A stretch of DNA of 37,535 nt, taken from the NCBI GenBank assembly GCA_029252685.1, contig JAQXAY010000149.1:1-37535 (forward strand), written 5' to 3'. This DNA is from Saprospiraceae bacterium. GTDB lineage: Bacteria; Bacteroidota; Bacteroidia; Chitinophagales; Saprospiraceae. Below, piece by piece: positions 11,021 through 20,205 of the stretch (position 1 is the stretch's first letter; each line of letters starts with the position of its first letter). Both the position numbers and the translations under genes were made by a program. The notes below the pieces were generated by a model, which saw only the letters and a list, made by a program, of their open reading frames with translations, had not been told where the DNA came from and did not search any database.

Positions 11021-11761
11021 TCATTTATAAATGACCTCTACATCTGTTCTATATTTCCTTACAATTTTTCGAATGGTAATAAATAACAAGGTGGGTATAC
11101 CAATCACGGCGATAAGTGCCACCAAAACAGCTAATACATCAGAACCATTACAAGCCAAACTGCAGGCTGCAATAGCAGCCAAACCAACCAACATAGTGGC
11201 AGCTAGAACACTTGCTAAGATTAGTAGGATCATAATTACCACGTTCCCACCAGAGCCTTTTTGAGCTTTCAGCTCCTTCTTCATCAATTTTAATTCAGAC
11301 TTGAATTGCTTTTTCAACTTACGATATTCCTTTACAACAAACCGATCAGATAAATTTAAAAAACTCCGATCTTTTTTTAGGGATGGGGTATGCACCGTAA
11401 AAACAGCACTTGCTTCGCCAATACCTTGATTTGCCGAATCTGAATAAAGAAATGCATTAGACCCAGAGGCTACTAATAATACATAAAGTACCGAAAGACC
11501 CAAATCCAGCTTTTTCCTATTTACAAATGTGTAAGAGATAAAAGATCCTTTGTATTTTCTTGAAGGATATAGGATGATCAGGCCTGCCGCACTTATCCCC
11601 AAAAGCCAAGTAAATATACTTGGAACAGATATATCACTTAGGAACAATAGCCCTCCAAAAACTAAACCATTTAATAACAATGCAATACGAATCAAAAATA
11701 AGAAGACCTGTGATTTACGGGGATTCAAACTAGCCCACCTAGAATATTTAATAAGGTTCAT
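11021..11761 (-). CDS. Multi-pass membrane protein sharing a lysine-rich/two-helix module with the 6065 gene
   Basis: The start is taken as the ATG at 11761, giving 246 residues. A 14-codon longer in-frame opening has a poor start context. Two helices come first (LIRIALLLNGLVFGGLLFL and FTWLLGISAAGLIILY), then a third (LGLSVLYVLLVASG). A segment with VFTVHTPSLKKDRSF follows, then a Lys-rich helical stretch (FKSELKLMKKELKAQK). Two long hydrophobic helices and a basic tail ending RKIVRKYR complete the protein. From the third helix onward the order and local phrases match the 164-residue protein at 6065-6559. No known function is recognised. The last helix pair is rich in Ala and has two Cys. 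Confidence 0.7.
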   Translation of the reverse strand: MNLIKYSRWASLNPRKSQVFLFLIRIALLLNGLVFGGLLFLSDISVPSIFTWLLGISAAGLIILYPSRKYKGSFISYTFVNRKKLDLGLSVLYVLLVASGSNAFLYSDSANQGIGEASAVFTVHTPSLKKDRSFLNLSDRFVVKEYRKLKKQFKSELKLMKKELKAQKGSGGNVVIMILLILASVLAATMLVGLAAIAACSLACNGSDVLAVLVALIAVIGIPTLLFITIRKIVRKYRTDVEVIYK

Positions 11762-11874
11762 AGTTATTATTTTAGTAGATAAGATTATTGTTTTTTTTGG
11801 CAATACATGAATTTCGGCGCAACTCTCTACCCATTTGAATGAAAAAAGAATAGTCTAATATTGTTTCAAAATAA

Positions 11875-14895: not shown

Positions 14896-15417
14896 TTATT
14901 CTTGTTTCAAAGCTTTCTGTTCACTTCCTGTATTTTCCCATATGGAATAGCGTACTTCTAATCCTTCAGGCACATATAAAACCAATGGGATTTTTACATT
15001 ATGGATGACACGAATACTAGAAGAAGCTATAAATTCAATTTGCTTTTCATAATCAGGACAACCCATCTTCGTTGAAAAAACAGCTCCGCTTCCTTCAAAT
15101 AGATAATAACTAATTCCAAAACCTTCGACCTGTTTTTCTAAAAAATCACCATTCAATCGATGCCTATTACAGTCCACCAATTGTTCTTTCCCGGCATAAA
15201 ATTCTATCATAAGCTCCTTTCCCTCTGCGCTTGGATTGATAATAAATTGCTTCATACCTTCAATAGATGCAGGAAACATATTGTACAATGCTTTATCAGG
15301 CTGACTTGAAACACCAAAGTCTATATTTTGATTTGTTTTCAAACTACTTGAACAAGAAGAGATTAGTATCGAAAATACTGTAAACACAAAAATTATAAGG
15401 GTATTTGCTGATTTCAT
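14896..15417 (-). CDS. eco: Ecotin-family serine protease inhibitor, lipoprotein form with lysine at predicted P1
   Basis: The 173-residue product begins with a lipoprotein signal (ISSC, Cys22). From about residue 45 it follows E. coli ecotin closely: YNMFPASIEGMKQ, VDCNRHRLNG (Cys83), VEGFGISYYLF, STKMGCPD (Cys120), KIPLVLYVPEGLEVRYSIW. Cys83 and Cys120 correspond to the ecotin disulfide that holds the reactive loop. The reactive bond of ecotin is Met84-Met85 in STMMACP. Here the equivalent residues are Lys117-Met118, which predicts trypsin-like target specificity. Ecotin is a dimeric periplasmic inhibitor of S1 serine proteases. Here the lipobox and a linker of about 20 residues suggest tethering to a membrane, possibly the cell surface. 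The gene stands alone. Confidence 0.92.
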   Translation of the reverse strand: MKSANTLIIFVFTVFSILISSCSSSLKTNQNIDFGVSSQPDKALYNMFPASIEGMKQFIINPSAEGKELMIEFYAGKEQLVDCNRHRLNGDFLEKQVEGFGISYYLFEGSGAVFSTKMGCPDYEKQIEFIASSSIRVIHNVKIPLVLYVPEGLEVRYSIWENTGSEQKALKQE

Positions 15418-15768: not shown

Positions 15769-16200
15769 ATGGTTCCGATTAAACACATGTTTCACATCAA
15801 TAGTCCGATAGAGGATGTCTTCAGAGCATTAAATGATATAGATAGTTTAAAGGACTGGTATACTTCTGATGTGGAAGGCGGGAAACACCTAAGTGATAGG
15901 ATCACGTTTAAATATGGAGACATGAAGATGGATGTACAGATCACTGAACTGCAATCAAATAGCAGAGTGCAATGGACCTGTATAGAGAACGACAGTCCAT
16001 TTGAACACCATGTATTTACTTTTGATCTAGATATGAATGTTGAAAAGACCCGAGTTCGATTTACACACAATGGATTTATGACCCAAGATGACAACTATGC
16101 AAACTTAAACTACAGCTGGGGAAAATATCTTGAGAGTTTAAGACAATTTTGCCAGACTGGAAAAGGAGAAGCATTTGGATCAAAAAGATACAGAAGCTAA
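15769..16200 (+). CDS. SRPBCC (START-like) domain protein
   Basis: The 143-residue product spans one SRPBCC helix-grip domain. The N-terminal strand and helix are FHINSPIEDVFRALND. The body includes DWYTSDVEGG, then the curved sheet segments and RVRFTHNGF. The C-terminal helix is WGKYLESLRQFCQTGKGEAF. This fold forms a deep hydrophobic pocket for lipids, polyketides or similar molecules. The ligand is not known. There is no signal peptide, so it is probably cytoplasmic. It ends 7 bp from the convergent phosphatase gene with no room for a separate terminator. Confidence 0.85.
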   Translation: MVPIKHMFHINSPIEDVFRALNDIDSLKDWYTSDVEGGKHLSDRITFKYGDMKMDVQITELQSNSRVQWTCIENDSPFEHHVFTFDLDMNVEKTRVRFTHNGFMTQDDNYANLNYSWGKYLESLRQFCQTGKGEAFGSKRYRS

Positions 16201-16207
16201 GATTCTA

Positions 16208-17983
16208 TTAAGGTTTAACAAATTTCCTACTTACACTTGTTTGCTTATAGCTCAATGATAAAACATACACTCCTGGAAGTAAATCAGATGTGTTGTATTG
16301 CATTTGTTGACCATCTACAGCTATTTGATCCAAAAGAATGCCCAAATTATTAAACAAAAATATTTCATCTACCTCATTAGATATATATGGGTCCAATGCT
16401 ATAGTCAATTGCTGCGTTGTATTCGAGTGACTGATTGCAAAATCAGCATCATCTAGCAAATCTTCAAGGCCTGTATTCAAACTACTATGCTGCAATGTAA
16501 TGCACCCAAATTCAAATCCATTTTCATCAAAGGCACAATACTTCAAAGAATCCTTTCCAAAAACCTCAATTGTGCCATAAGAATCATTGAAATTCAAATT
16601 ACTGACACCATTACCTCCTCCATTCCATAAGGCATCTTCCACTAAAGGATATCCAATAAGTGCACCAATTGAATCCACATAATAATTAATAATGCCCTCA
16701 TCACCTGCGGATAGTCCACTAGCTGTAAGTTCAGGAATCCCCGCATTAGAGCCATCGTCTAAAGCAGAGCTGTGTGAATCTCCTGACACTATAAGCAAAT
16801 CTCTTATTGCCCCACTATCATACAAATCTAAAAGAGCTTGTTGGTCTGCGGGATATCCTACCCAATTGTAGGATAGGTTAGATGCTAGTGTTGCGCCAGA
16901 GCCATTTTGGCCAGAGATATTAACCTCTAGCCCTTGAAAGACAAGAGCAACTTTTAGAATCTCCGCGTAGTAGGCATTAAAAATAACACTACTACCCATG
17001 ATCTTCCAGTCTGCCTCAGATTGCTGAAGTCCCTCCAACAGCCACTCCCTTTGATCTACACCGAGCATAGAGTGATTTACTGAATCGGGTTCGAAGAGCC
17101 AATTACCGTTTAAAGAATCATACAAAAACGCGTCATGTCTCGGCATTCTCGAATTGCGCGTATCTACCATAAACAATTCCAGGTTCCCTATTTGAAAACT
17201 ATGTTGAATACCATGAGCAGTATCAGCTGCTGGGTAACCAGGAAAATAATTAAAATAACTTTGTATAGCCCCTTCTCTTATACCAGCAGGCATATCATTG
17301 GTTATCAACTCTGTGCTCACACCACCACTTCCAGTTTCTACAGTAAAGGTCGGATAAGTCCAACCTTCAGAATCATTGTAACTGTAATCATCATCATAAA
17401 TATACTCGACAGCCATGTAGGGCTGAACATAATTTTCCATATTAGAATCGGAATACCTTAAAGCAAAAGACTCTGCTCGTTTATCAGGATATAGGCAATA
17501 ATCATTTCCAAGCTGCGCAGGGGGCCAACCCCAATCACCCAAATGTAAAAATAGGTGGGGCTCAAACGCTTGAATTTGTTCAAAAATCCCCGGATTGTTT
17601 CCATAATTACAGGAACCAACAATCAACTTTAAGGGATTCTTTGAGTTTGGCTCAGGAAAGGTCCTAAAGCTCCCAGAACTTGCATCAGGTAATCCATCAA
17701 ACATAAATCGATAATAGTACTTCTTATCCGCTTCTAGCCCATCAACATCAACGATTACCGTACCAAAACGCTCTATCCTAGTAGAATCAGTAAACACTAA
17801 AAAGTCATCGAATTCTTCGGTATCTGAAACCTGTAGATCGAAAGGTAAGCCAAGATCTGCTGTCTTGATATAGATTCGTCCCCCTGTATCATGCACGCCA
17901 CCGACGACGGGCCCATGGGAGATAGTTTGAGCATTTATATTAGTCAAGAAAAAAATAAATAGCGTGCAATATATAAGCTTCAT
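16208..17983 (-). CDS. PhoD-like metallophosphatase with C-terminal type IX secretion sorting domain
   Basis: The 591-residue product has a signal peptide (cleavage probably after NAQ) and an N-terminal Fn3-like domain typical of PhoD proteins. The metallophosphoesterase domain has GSCNYGNN (from 123), HLGDWGW (from 147, Asp150), MVDTRNSRMPRHD and LIVSGDSHSSA. The C-terminal 80 residues, with IFLFNNLGILLD and a final KFVKP, have the pattern of a Bacteroidota type A T9SS signal. This implies export and attachment or release at the outer surface. PhoD-family enzymes hydrolyse phosphate mono- and diesters with Ca/Fe-type metals. The exact substrate is unknown. It appears to be monocistronic. Confidence 0.9.
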   Translation of the reverse strand: MKLIYCTLFIFFLTNINAQTISHGPVVGGVHDTGGRIYIKTADLGLPFDLQVSDTEEFDDFLVFTDSTRIERFGTVIVDVDGLEADKKYYYRFMFDGLPDASSGSFRTFPEPNSKNPLKLIVGSCNYGNNPGIFEQIQAFEPHLFLHLGDWGWPPAQLGNDYCLYPDKRAESFALRYSDSNMENYVQPYMAVEYIYDDDYSYNDSEGWTYPTFTVETGSGGVSTELITNDMPAGIREGAIQSYFNYFPGYPAADTAHGIQHSFQIGNLELFMVDTRNSRMPRHDAFLYDSLNGNWLFEPDSVNHSMLGVDQREWLLEGLQQSEADWKIMGSSVIFNAYYAEILKVALVFQGLEVNISGQNGSGATLASNLSYNWVGYPADQQALLDLYDSGAIRDLLIVSGDSHSSALDDGSNAGIPELTASGLSAGDEGIINYYVDSIGALIGYPLVEDALWNGGGNGVSNLNFNDSYGTIEVFGKDSLKYCAFDENGFEFGCITLQHSSLNTGLEDLLDDADFAISHSNTTQQLTIALDPYISNEVDEIFLFNNLGILLDQIAVDGQQMQYNTSDLLPGVYVLSLSYKQTSVSRKFVKP

Positions 17984-18070: not shown

Positions 18071-18661
18071 CTAACCAACAGATTTATTCACAAACTCACC
18101 AACACGAACTCTTGTAGCAAATTCTATTTTATCTTTTCTTTTACTAAACAGTGGGTTGTATCCAAATTGATTTGCTTTCACACGTTCGCCAGTCTCAATA
18201 TAAAATTTGACTCCCTGGGTAACTGCATGAACATATCGCTTCATTAATGGCATATATATTAGATTCATTACAAGTCTCTTCAATAGCAGAGGGACTCTAT
18301 CTAGTACAATATCCGGATACAGGTGAATCTGTATCTTCAGGGCAGTTTTATCAACGTCTACATCATCCAGACTCCACACTACCTTAGCAGATGCATAATA
18401 GCTATTGCCTATTTTTAGCGTATAACCCTCACCCTCTCTCCAATCCGTGAATACCCGTTTCAACATTAATCCATTGAAGTATTCAATGCTATCTTCTGCC
18501 CCAATCTTACCCCAAGTATACACTTGATTTTCTTTACAAAACGGATGGCAAAGATTTAAATTACCAGGCATAGCTATAGTATTCCAGACGGTAGAACAAT
18601 CTGCATCAATAGTAAGCTCATGGCATACGAGATGTCTTGTAATCTTGTTATAGATTCTCAT
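18071..18661 (-). CDS. SRPBCC-family protein (second in window)
   Basis: The 196-residue product has the start of a helix-grip fold (HELTIDADCSTVWNTIAMPGN, then HPFCKE). A central sheet includes FTDWREGEGYTLKIGN and KTALKIQIHLYP. A long amphipathic helix near residues 130-150 ends the domain. A basic, less conserved tail of about 40 residues follows. It resembles polyketide cyclase/dehydrase-like SRPBCC proteins only at the fold level, and no ligand can be assigned. It is unlike the first SRPBCC protein (15769) in sequence. No signal peptide is evident. A perfect inverted repeat begins 3 bp upstream of its start codon. Confidence 0.7.
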   Translation of the reverse strand: MRIYNKITRHLVCHELTIDADCSTVWNTIAMPGNLNLCHPFCKENQVYTWGKIGAEDSIEYFNGLMLKRVFTDWREGEGYTLKIGNSYYASAKVVWSLDDVDVDKTALKIQIHLYPDIVLDRVPLLLKRLVMNLIYMPLMKRYVHAVTQGVKFYIETGERVKANQFGYNPLFSKRKDKIEFATRVRVGEFVNKSVG

Positions 18662-18887: not shown

Positions 18888-20129
18888 CTACAAATTAAGC
18901 TCAAAAACAGCCGTTTCTACATACTCTGATTCTGCCGTGGTAACATTTGTCCAAGCTAAGTAAAGTCTATTTTCCTGTAATACGATCTTAGGGAAACCAC
19001 TATTCCTGTTACTATCAGTTTCAACAAGCACATCATCTTTAACTAGTCCATGATCCAAGTTGAGAATCGCTGCTTTTATAACAGTCTTATCTGAAGTCAA
19101 TTGTTCCATCCAAACCAGTAAAGCATTTTCCTGATCGATAAATTTAACATCTACACGTCCAATCGGATTTTCAGATTTGAGCTTGATTGCTTTATCAAAA
19201 GTTTCCCCCAAATCGTCGGACAGCGCATAACGAAGTATTGGGGATGCATCAGACATAGTATACCAAAAAACAATAAGGTTATCTCCACTAGCAGCAATTG
19301 AAGGACCATTAACTGGACAACCTGCAATCTCCCAATTATCCTGATAAACTGCTTTGGGTTCATACCATATGCCATCTACAGACCTGGTGATATAAATATC
19401 CCTAATCTCTTTATCGCTCCTATCTCTATAGACGACTATGGGTCCCGAAGTAGATATTGCCATATCCGTTTGGCAACAATCACAAACTTTATGATCTAAC
19501 TCAACAGAGGGCTCAATAACTCCGTCTGAATTTATTTTTGTGTACCGCAGACTCATACTTCCGTGATGACCATGACCATCGTCCTTTGCATGTTCATGAT
19601 CTTCCGAAATAGTATTCCTTCCATCCAGCCAACACATTGCGAAACCGCCCTCCGCCAAATACTGAATACTAACAAAGCCGTGTTCAGCATGCACTGAATC
19701 CTTATGAACTACTTCTCCCTCTGACCAGGAGTCACCTCCATCAAAAGACTGGCTCACTGTAACATCATAATCAAATGTACCTGCATCGCTTTTAGCCAAC
19801 CAATGCGCAGCCATATGTTGATCCTCTTTCCCACCTACAGCCATAGCCGGAAAATCGGCCCAGTTCACAAACCAATCTGTCCCTCTTGCTATCTCCTTTC
19901 CGGGAGACCACCCAGTTGTATCCCACTTTGAATATTTCAACACAGACAAGCTATCATTTTCATACTCAATCCAGGACAAATAAACATTTCCATTTGCACT
20001 TAAAAATAAGTTGGGCTCTCCACCTATTTTGCAAGGAGTCTCCACAATGCTTCCATCACCAATCGAGACCTTTTCATTACAAGCAAAAAAGCACAAGACA
20101 ACACTTAATAAGATAAAATAGCGGATCAT
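18888..20129 (-). CDS. BNR/sialidase-like beta-propeller lipoprotein with His-rich and CDCC segments
   Basis: The ATG at 20129 gives a lipoprotein signal ending FFAC (Cys17). A longer in-frame opening would run into the terminator upstream. The 413-residue product has Asp-box (BNR) repeats such as SFDGGDSW and SDDLGETF, which mark a sialidase-type propeller. It contains none of the clear catalytic Arg triad or Tyr/Glu pairs of true sialidases that I can place, so the enzyme name used for such proteins may not apply. A His-rich loop (EDHEHAKDDGHGHHG, residues 177-190) and VCDCCQT (Cys216, 218, 219) suggest a metal site. Location is probably periplasmic or outer surface. Confidence 0.8.
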   Translation of the reverse strand: MIRYFILLSVVLCFFACNEKVSIGDGSIVETPCKIGGEPNLFLSANGNVYLSWIEYENDSLSVLKYSKWDTTGWSPGKEIARGTDWFVNWADFPAMAVGGKEDQHMAAHWLAKSDAGTFDYDVTVSQSFDGGDSWSEGEVVHKDSVHAEHGFVSIQYLAEGGFAMCWLDGRNTISEDHEHAKDDGHGHHGSMSLRYTKINSDGVIEPSVELDHKVCDCCQTDMAISTSGPIVVYRDRSDKEIRDIYITRSVDGIWYEPKAVYQDNWEIAGCPVNGPSIAASGDNLIVFWYTMSDASPILRYALSDDLGETFDKAIKLKSENPIGRVDVKFIDQENALLVWMEQLTSDKTVIKAAILNLDHGLVKDDVLVETDSNRNSGFPKIVLQENRLYLAWTNVTTAESEYVETAVFELNL

Positions 20130-20167
20130 AGGATGATACGTTTGATTATTAGTATCAATATAAAAAA

Positions 20168-20205
20168 AATACCGCAGTTTTTGAGTGTTCAAAAGCTGCG
20201 GTATT
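20168..20205 (-). terminator. Rho-independent terminator after the serine hydrolase gene
   Basis: AATACCGCAG (20168-20177) pairs perfectly with CTGCGGTATT (20196-20205), with an 18-base loop. On the minus strand the stem is followed by a T-run. It lies 21 bp after the stop of the serine hydrolase gene. Confidence 0.85.

Follow-up and report, generated by a model that had tools for sequence, protein, structure and literature searches.

Escherichia coli ecotin takes a two-point grip on its target proteases, the second contact being formed by residues 67-70 together with residues 108-113 (PMC7773321). This secondary site has been proposed to compensate for the sub-optimal Met at P1, and Arg at that position strengthens the binding of ecotin to three complement proteases; why most ecotins retain the sub-optimal Met is the question of the same recent study (PMC9136129). 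Ecotins are already known from Bacteroidetes, where 40 species have been counted (PMC6944378). Here we describe a Bacteroidota ecotin with Lys at P1, an eroded secondary site and a lipobox. The gene lies in a stretch of 37,535 nucleotides (contig JAQXAY010000149.1 of the Saprospiraceae assembly GCA_029252685.1), to which we refer as the window.

An ecotin-family protein with Lys at P1

The ecotin-family gene occupies positions 14896..15417 on the minus strand of the window, with an ATG start and a stop codon at 14896-14898, and encodes a protein of 173 aa, as delineated by the open reading frame, profile and PDB matches. The product is a genuine ecotin relative, as the first-pass annotation had proposed. 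In a profile search of the 173-aa protein, residues 46-161 (14935..15282, minus strand) match PF03974 Ecotin (E 9.3e-29; 100.3 bits, the cut-off being 22.2), and a sequence search of the PDB retrieves ecotins, the best at E 6e-22. The fold points the same way. The AlphaFold model has a mean pLDDT of 74.7, with block means of 86-94 across residues 71-160 and values below 50 for residues 1-5 and 12-39. All 29 Foldseek matches to this model at E <= 0.001 are ecotins, structure comparison gives a top Z of 15.2 and a best non-ecotin row of Z 5.1, and the model superimposes on 1ifg and 7pqn_C with rmsd of 2.4 and 2.1 Å over 130 and 128 residues, respectively. The NCBIfam model for ecotin, NF002987, also matches (E 1.5e-33), yet at 115.5 bits the score is below the equivalog cut-off of 162, and the protein is therefore filed as ecotin-family rather than as an equivalog of E. 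coli ecotin. The C-terminal arm after W160 (14899..14937, minus strand), which is the counterpart of the dimerisation interface of E. coli ecotin, residues 133-142 (PMC7773321), is modelled at low confidence, with a strand at 166-172 and block means of pLDDT of 58 and 51. No second ecotin was found in the window genome, which is 95.85% complete.

The reactive loop, S115-T116-K117-M118-G119-C120, is encoded at 15058..15075 of the minus strand. Sequence alignment of the window phrase STKMGCPD with the ecotin phrase STMMACPD places Lys117 (codon 15067-15069) on Met84, the P1 residue, and Met118 on Met85, the P1' residue. The ecotin in structure 1fi8 is split into two chains; the sequence match of chain D begins at window residue 118, and the structural match of 1fi8_C to the AlphaFold model ends at model residue 117, which is chain residue 84. 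The chain break thus falls between residues 117 and 118 in both the sequence and the structure alignments, which identifies Lys117 as P1. The first-pass annotation had made this assignment, naming beforehand an alignment with another residue at P1 as its refutation; once the alignments were run, Lys117 stayed in place. It had also reported that both disulfide Cys are kept, and the alignment confirms this: Cys83 (15169..15171, minus strand) and Cys120 have equivalents in all 112 ecotin domains with a canonical loop that we compared, and they are expected to form the disulphide corresponding to Cys50-Cys87 of E. coli. The residue numbers it gave (22, 83, 117 and 120) are all correct.

Comparison of P1 across Bacteroidota, which that annotation suggested, shows what it missed, namely, that Lys and Arg are widespread at this position. 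From 127 ecotin domains, we removed 4 duplicates (L009, L010 and both genes of L034, seen again in L083) as well as 11 domains that lack the canonical loop, leaving 112, of which 110 come from the phylum of the window and 2 from Shewanella. The set is weighted to one family, that of genome G502, which contributes 98 of the 123 rows before the loop filter (98 of its 132 matches, counted by hand, were taken in). P1 is Leu in 62 domains, Met in 22, Lys in 11, Arg in 7, Gln in 6 and Asn in 4; thus, a basic P1 occurs in 18 of the 112 domains, 13 of which have no lipobox. On two trees of 61 representatives selected at 80% identity, a minimum of 13 and 12 changes, respectively, is required for the basic P1; for all P1 residues, the minimum on the first tree is 30. 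The many changes indicate that P1 evolves fast in the phylum and that Lys belongs to the ordinary variation. Lys at P1 is common rather than exceptional among these proteins, and, given this recurrence, the window ecotin is a modest variation of an inhibitor already known and not new in kind.

Ecotin variation in the phylum also takes other forms. In genome G888, four consecutive ecotin genes (L136:4191-7443) have Leu, Asn, Lys and Asn at P1, and two-gene arrays with different P1 residues are present in G908 (Leu, Lys) and G924 (Leu, Asn). A 307-aa chain from a Bacteroidia MAG (L013:4827-5750) combines the lipobox LSAC with two ecotin domains, both with Lys at P1, and is matched by PF03974 over two stretches with E 4.9e-59, that is, it is a natural single-chain double ecotin; the predicted model is poor in the first half (pTM 0.43), and we draw nothing from it. 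The 11 PF03974 members without the canonical loop (L008, L074, L079, L080 and L084-L090) have extra residues before the second Cys and no STxM motif, and perhaps are ecotin-like proteins rather than inhibitors of the usual type.

Ecotin is patchily represented in the genome draws, which overlap, with the window genome included in each of the family, order, phylum and class draws. The genomes in which it was detected number 3 of 298 (family draw), 8 of 298 (order), 5 of 395 (phylum) and 3 of 395 (class); in the family of G299, 10 of 121 genomes have the gene, and in that of G502, 116 of 246. Lewinella sp. W8 (L009), from the same family as the window, has an ecotin with Leu at P1, the frame being identical to that of L002 (G275). 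In trees, the three family members cluster (98/93; 93/96), and the two lipobox-bearing congeners pair (100/92; 98/90), on long branches.

The eroded secondary site

In the alignment, the first half of the secondary site, W67-G68-Y69-D70 in E. coli, is replaced by F100-G101-I102-S103 (15109..15120, minus strand), and the second half, R108-Y109-N110-S111-K112-L113, by I138-H139-N140-V141-K142-I143 (14989..15006, minus strand). Among the 112 domains, W67 is conserved in 98, Y109 in 110 and N110 in 101. Of the six core residues of this site, the window protein matches the family consensus at two and its orthologue from a congener at none; 93 of the 112 domains match at all six, and in 19 at least one deviates. 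An intact secondary site is usual for ecotin without being family-defining, and the window protein does not have one. It is this erosion, which the first-pass annotation missed, that makes the genus of the window worth a look.

Loss of the second site in a protein with a basic P1 is consistent with the view that this site compensates for a sub-optimal P1 (PMC9136129). Across the domain set, W67 is lost in 9 of the 18 domains with a basic P1 versus 5 of the 94 others, and raw rows, with kinship ignored, give p of 1.2e-5 by the Fisher test and 1.1e-5 by the Mann-Whitney test; the full secondary site is retained in half of the basic-P1 domains. In independent pairs, tried in each direction, the median p is 1. 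Because the association disappears after correction for kinship, we regard a link between basic P1 and loss of the second site as conjectural.

With the secondary site eroded, binding should rest mainly on the P1 loop. By the proposed mechanism, the loop S115-T116-K117-M118, tied by Cys83-Cys120, would enter the active site of a chymotrypsin-fold protease, with Lys117 filling the S1 pocket and so favouring trypsin-like enzymes. The earlier claim that Lys117 narrows the target to such enzymes holds in part. The Met84Lys exchange in ecotin dramatically reduces affinity for elastase (PMC7773321), and some narrowing is accordingly plausible. Against the full claim, certain P1 exchanges are described as leaving trypsin inhibition unaffected, and the title of a 1994 paper cited in the same source states that the P1 Met is not crucial for specificity (PMC7773321). 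Campylobacter ecotins with Leu at P1 and a changed second site behave like E. coli ecotin (PMC7773321), which calls for caution in reading specificity from the residues at P1 and the second site.

The lipobox and the side of the membrane

The N-terminal signal (15352..15417, minus strand) ends in the predicted lipobox I19-S20-S21-C22 (Cys22 codon, 15352-15354), preceded by a hydrophobic stretch with Lys2. The first-pass annotation had pointed out this ISSC motif ahead of the ecotin domain; it is there, and the 38%-identical orthologue of the congener also has a lipobox, LTG-C. The window ecotin contains three Cys in total, so that the expected disulphide does not require Cys22. By itself, the lipobox pattern is unspecific: it matches 6 reading frames of the window, two of them implausibly. 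Our list of lipobox-bearing ecotins, which we set ourselves, comprises seven proteins, and a wider pattern applied to 122 reading frames returns the same seven plus L110. The Cys of L110 is inside an otherwise ordinary signal, and the L078 frame starts late; both were counted as having no lipobox. In L059, the second Cys was taken (MFSC), and the pattern stops at an earlier one. Of the 8 domains with a lipobox, which belong to 7 proteins, 5 (from 4 proteins) have a basic P1, versus 13 of the 104 others. As a mark of lipoprotein ecotins, the basic P1 was discarded: the tree provides 3 independent pairs (the starred branches), with a median sign-test p of 0.5.

Among the titles and abstract openings listed by searches of open-licence papers, none describes a lipoprotein ecotin; no paper on an ecotin with lysine at P1 was returned either, and the word 'lipoprotein' is absent from the main text of PMC7773321, PMC6944378 and PMC12620975.

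The first-pass annotation placed the putative lipoprotein at the cell surface, and indeed many lipoproteins of Bacteroidota are exported to the surface (PMC5080379). A surface-displayed ecotin would meet the proteases of a host, predator or prey outside the cell, a role that the lipobox would allow and that agrees with the reported protection by ecotins against exogenous proteases (PMC7773321). The residues that follow the lipobox Cys suggest otherwise. Lipoproteins displayed at the surface of Capnocytophaga and Bacteroides have acidic residues close after the Cys, as do the SusD proteins predicted in Flavobacterium; periplasm-facing lipoproteins show no highly conserved residues at these positions (PMC5080379). 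In the window ecotin (CSSSLKTNQNI), no acidic residue is present in the 10 positions after Cys22; the congener reads CSPKVNSSA, and none of the seven lipobox-bearing ecotins has an acidic residue within five positions of the Cys. By comparison, each of the four readable SusD proteins of the window genome, among five hits, carries an acidic residue no more than three positions after the Cys (CQSDF, CADFL, CEQEL and CTDLD); the argument draws on these four proteins and on export motifs determined in other members of the phylum. The fifth hit, L115, was dropped because another frame was picked, and the Cys of L112 and L114 were placed by eye. The surface placement therefore draws no support from the N-terminal residues and appears unlikely; a periplasm-facing position is more likely. 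Most likely, then, the window ecotin would be exported, lipidated on Cys22 and held at the periplasmic face of the outer membrane.

Divergence, target and relation to known inhibitors

Two of the three genomes of the window's genus encode ecotin. The orthologue comes from Sphingobacteriales bacterium AM_2324 (L010; G096 has the identical ecotin frame) and has Arg at P1. The gene order of ecotin, a desaturase-like gene and a TetR-like gene is common to the window and this congener, in mirror image. At the amino acid level, the two ecotins are 37.7% identical (33.9% by tblastn), compared with 84.1% for the desaturase and 67.3% for the TetR-like protein; the identity at second codon positions is 0.60, 0.93 and 0.83, respectively. 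At third codon positions, it falls to 41-45% in each of the three genes, for which reason dN/dS was set aside. A search of 20 window ORFs against five loci detected further matches in the congener: 15769-16200 (79%), 16208-17983 (69%), 18071-18661 (74%), 11021-11803 (47%) and an 85-aa part of 18888-20192 (46%). Of these eight genes, ecotin has diverged the most, with two others near. This fast divergence, also missed by the first-pass annotation, fits an arms race or relaxed constraint, and with saturated third positions there is no choosing between the two.

If constraint is relaxed, the protein could be a decaying inhibitor, in which the long branches and the lost second site reflect loss of function. 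The 38% identity next to 84% and 67% for two syntenic neighbours, the eroded site and the third congener, which has no ecotin in an 87% complete genome, can all be read in this manner. However, both orthologues keep the frame, both Cys, T116, M118, a basic P1 and the lipobox, and two other genes, at 11021-11803 and in part of 18888-20192, diverge almost as fast; we consider decay quite improbable.

In a different genus (code g126), ecotin has an alpha-2-macroglobulin-like neighbour. At L135:1377-7816, an alpha-2-macroglobulin gene (1967 aa; MG2, A2M, bMG10) lies 44 bases before ecotin, and such a neighbour was seen in 22 of 62 sources scanned, all from g126; the sources are short stretches, some of which repeat a place. 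In nine loci of this genus, ecotin and part of the neighbour differ in identity by at most six points in 36 of 36 pairs. The window has no A2M-like neighbour of ecotin.

With regard to the target, an alternative to defence is that the ecotin regulates exported serine proteases of the cell itself. At E up to 0.1, chymotrypsin-fold matches occur at six places of the window genome, one of them below the cut-off. By eye, we take three to be HtrA-like, one to be a 344-aa protein and one to be S46-like. The sixth, L049, encodes a protein that looks secreted, resembles lysyl endopeptidases (E 1.2e-32 to 4nsy) and has a dockerin-like tail; a Lys P1 would suit a lysyl endopeptidase. In the alignment, the positions that we take to be the catalytic His, Asp and Ser are kept in L049, and Thr, beside a gap, stands opposite Asp225, presumably the residue that gives lysyl endopeptidases their preference for Lys. 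With Thr at this position, the Lys preference of L049 is doubtful, which weakens it as a neat partner for the Lys P1. Furthermore, the ecotins that were tested failed to stop HtrA or DegP from degrading protein (PMC7773321), so that the HtrA-type enzymes of the cell are unlikely targets, and ecotin is present in only 3 of the 298 genomes of the family draw. Regulation of endogenous proteases thus seems unlikely, and the target is more likely to be a trypsin-like protease of exogenous origin, which may come from a protist, a predator or animal gut effluent.

Taken together, these observations make it fairly probable, in our estimate, that the window protein is a lipid-anchored, periplasm-facing ecotin that depends on the basic P1 to block trypsin-like proteases as they come in, that is, a guard against those enzymes that get through the outer membrane. 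A more far-reaching scenario, which we consider tentative and on balance doubtful, is that ecotin of this genus, formerly soluble and promiscuous with two binding sites, became a lipid-anchored inhibitor of trypsin driven by P1, diverging fast in an arms race with trypsin-like proteases and dropping the second grip. If so, the two-domain protein of L013, with Lys at both P1 positions, would be a second and more extreme case of the same route. Natural ecotins of Bacteroidota differ in P1 (Lys, Arg, Leu, Gln or Asn), in whether the second site is intact and in whether a lipobox is present; this variety makes the proposed trade-off between P1 strength, second site and breadth testable on natural proteins rather than engineered mutants.

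Several described systems share features with the window protein. E. coli ecotin (PF03974; inhibitor family I11) has the same fold, disulphide Cys, position of the reactive loop, primary-site residues N51/H53/R54 and C-terminal arm, but is a soluble periplasmic protein with Met at P1 and the reference secondary site, in contrast to the lipobox, Lys P1 and eroded secondary site of the window protein. The ecotins of Campylobacter rectus and C. showae resemble the window protein in having a secondary site unlike that of E. coli, with a natural P1 change to Leu in C. rectus, and are nevertheless active against trypsin, factor Xa and neutrophil elastase; their P1 residues are Leu or Met, not Lys (PMC7773321). 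Brucella Omp19, a lipid-anchored bacterial protein discussed as a protease inhibitor (PMC6607954), is similar in concept only. A parallel to the combination of residues is PDB 1ezs, in which ecotin engineered as M84R, W67A/G68A/Y69A/D70A, with a basic P1 and a disabled first half of the second site, is bound to rat trypsin, which indicates that an inhibitor of this kind can bind trypsin; 1ezs is a laboratory construct with Arg, whereas the window protein is a natural one that presents a similar combination with Lys and other residues at the second site.
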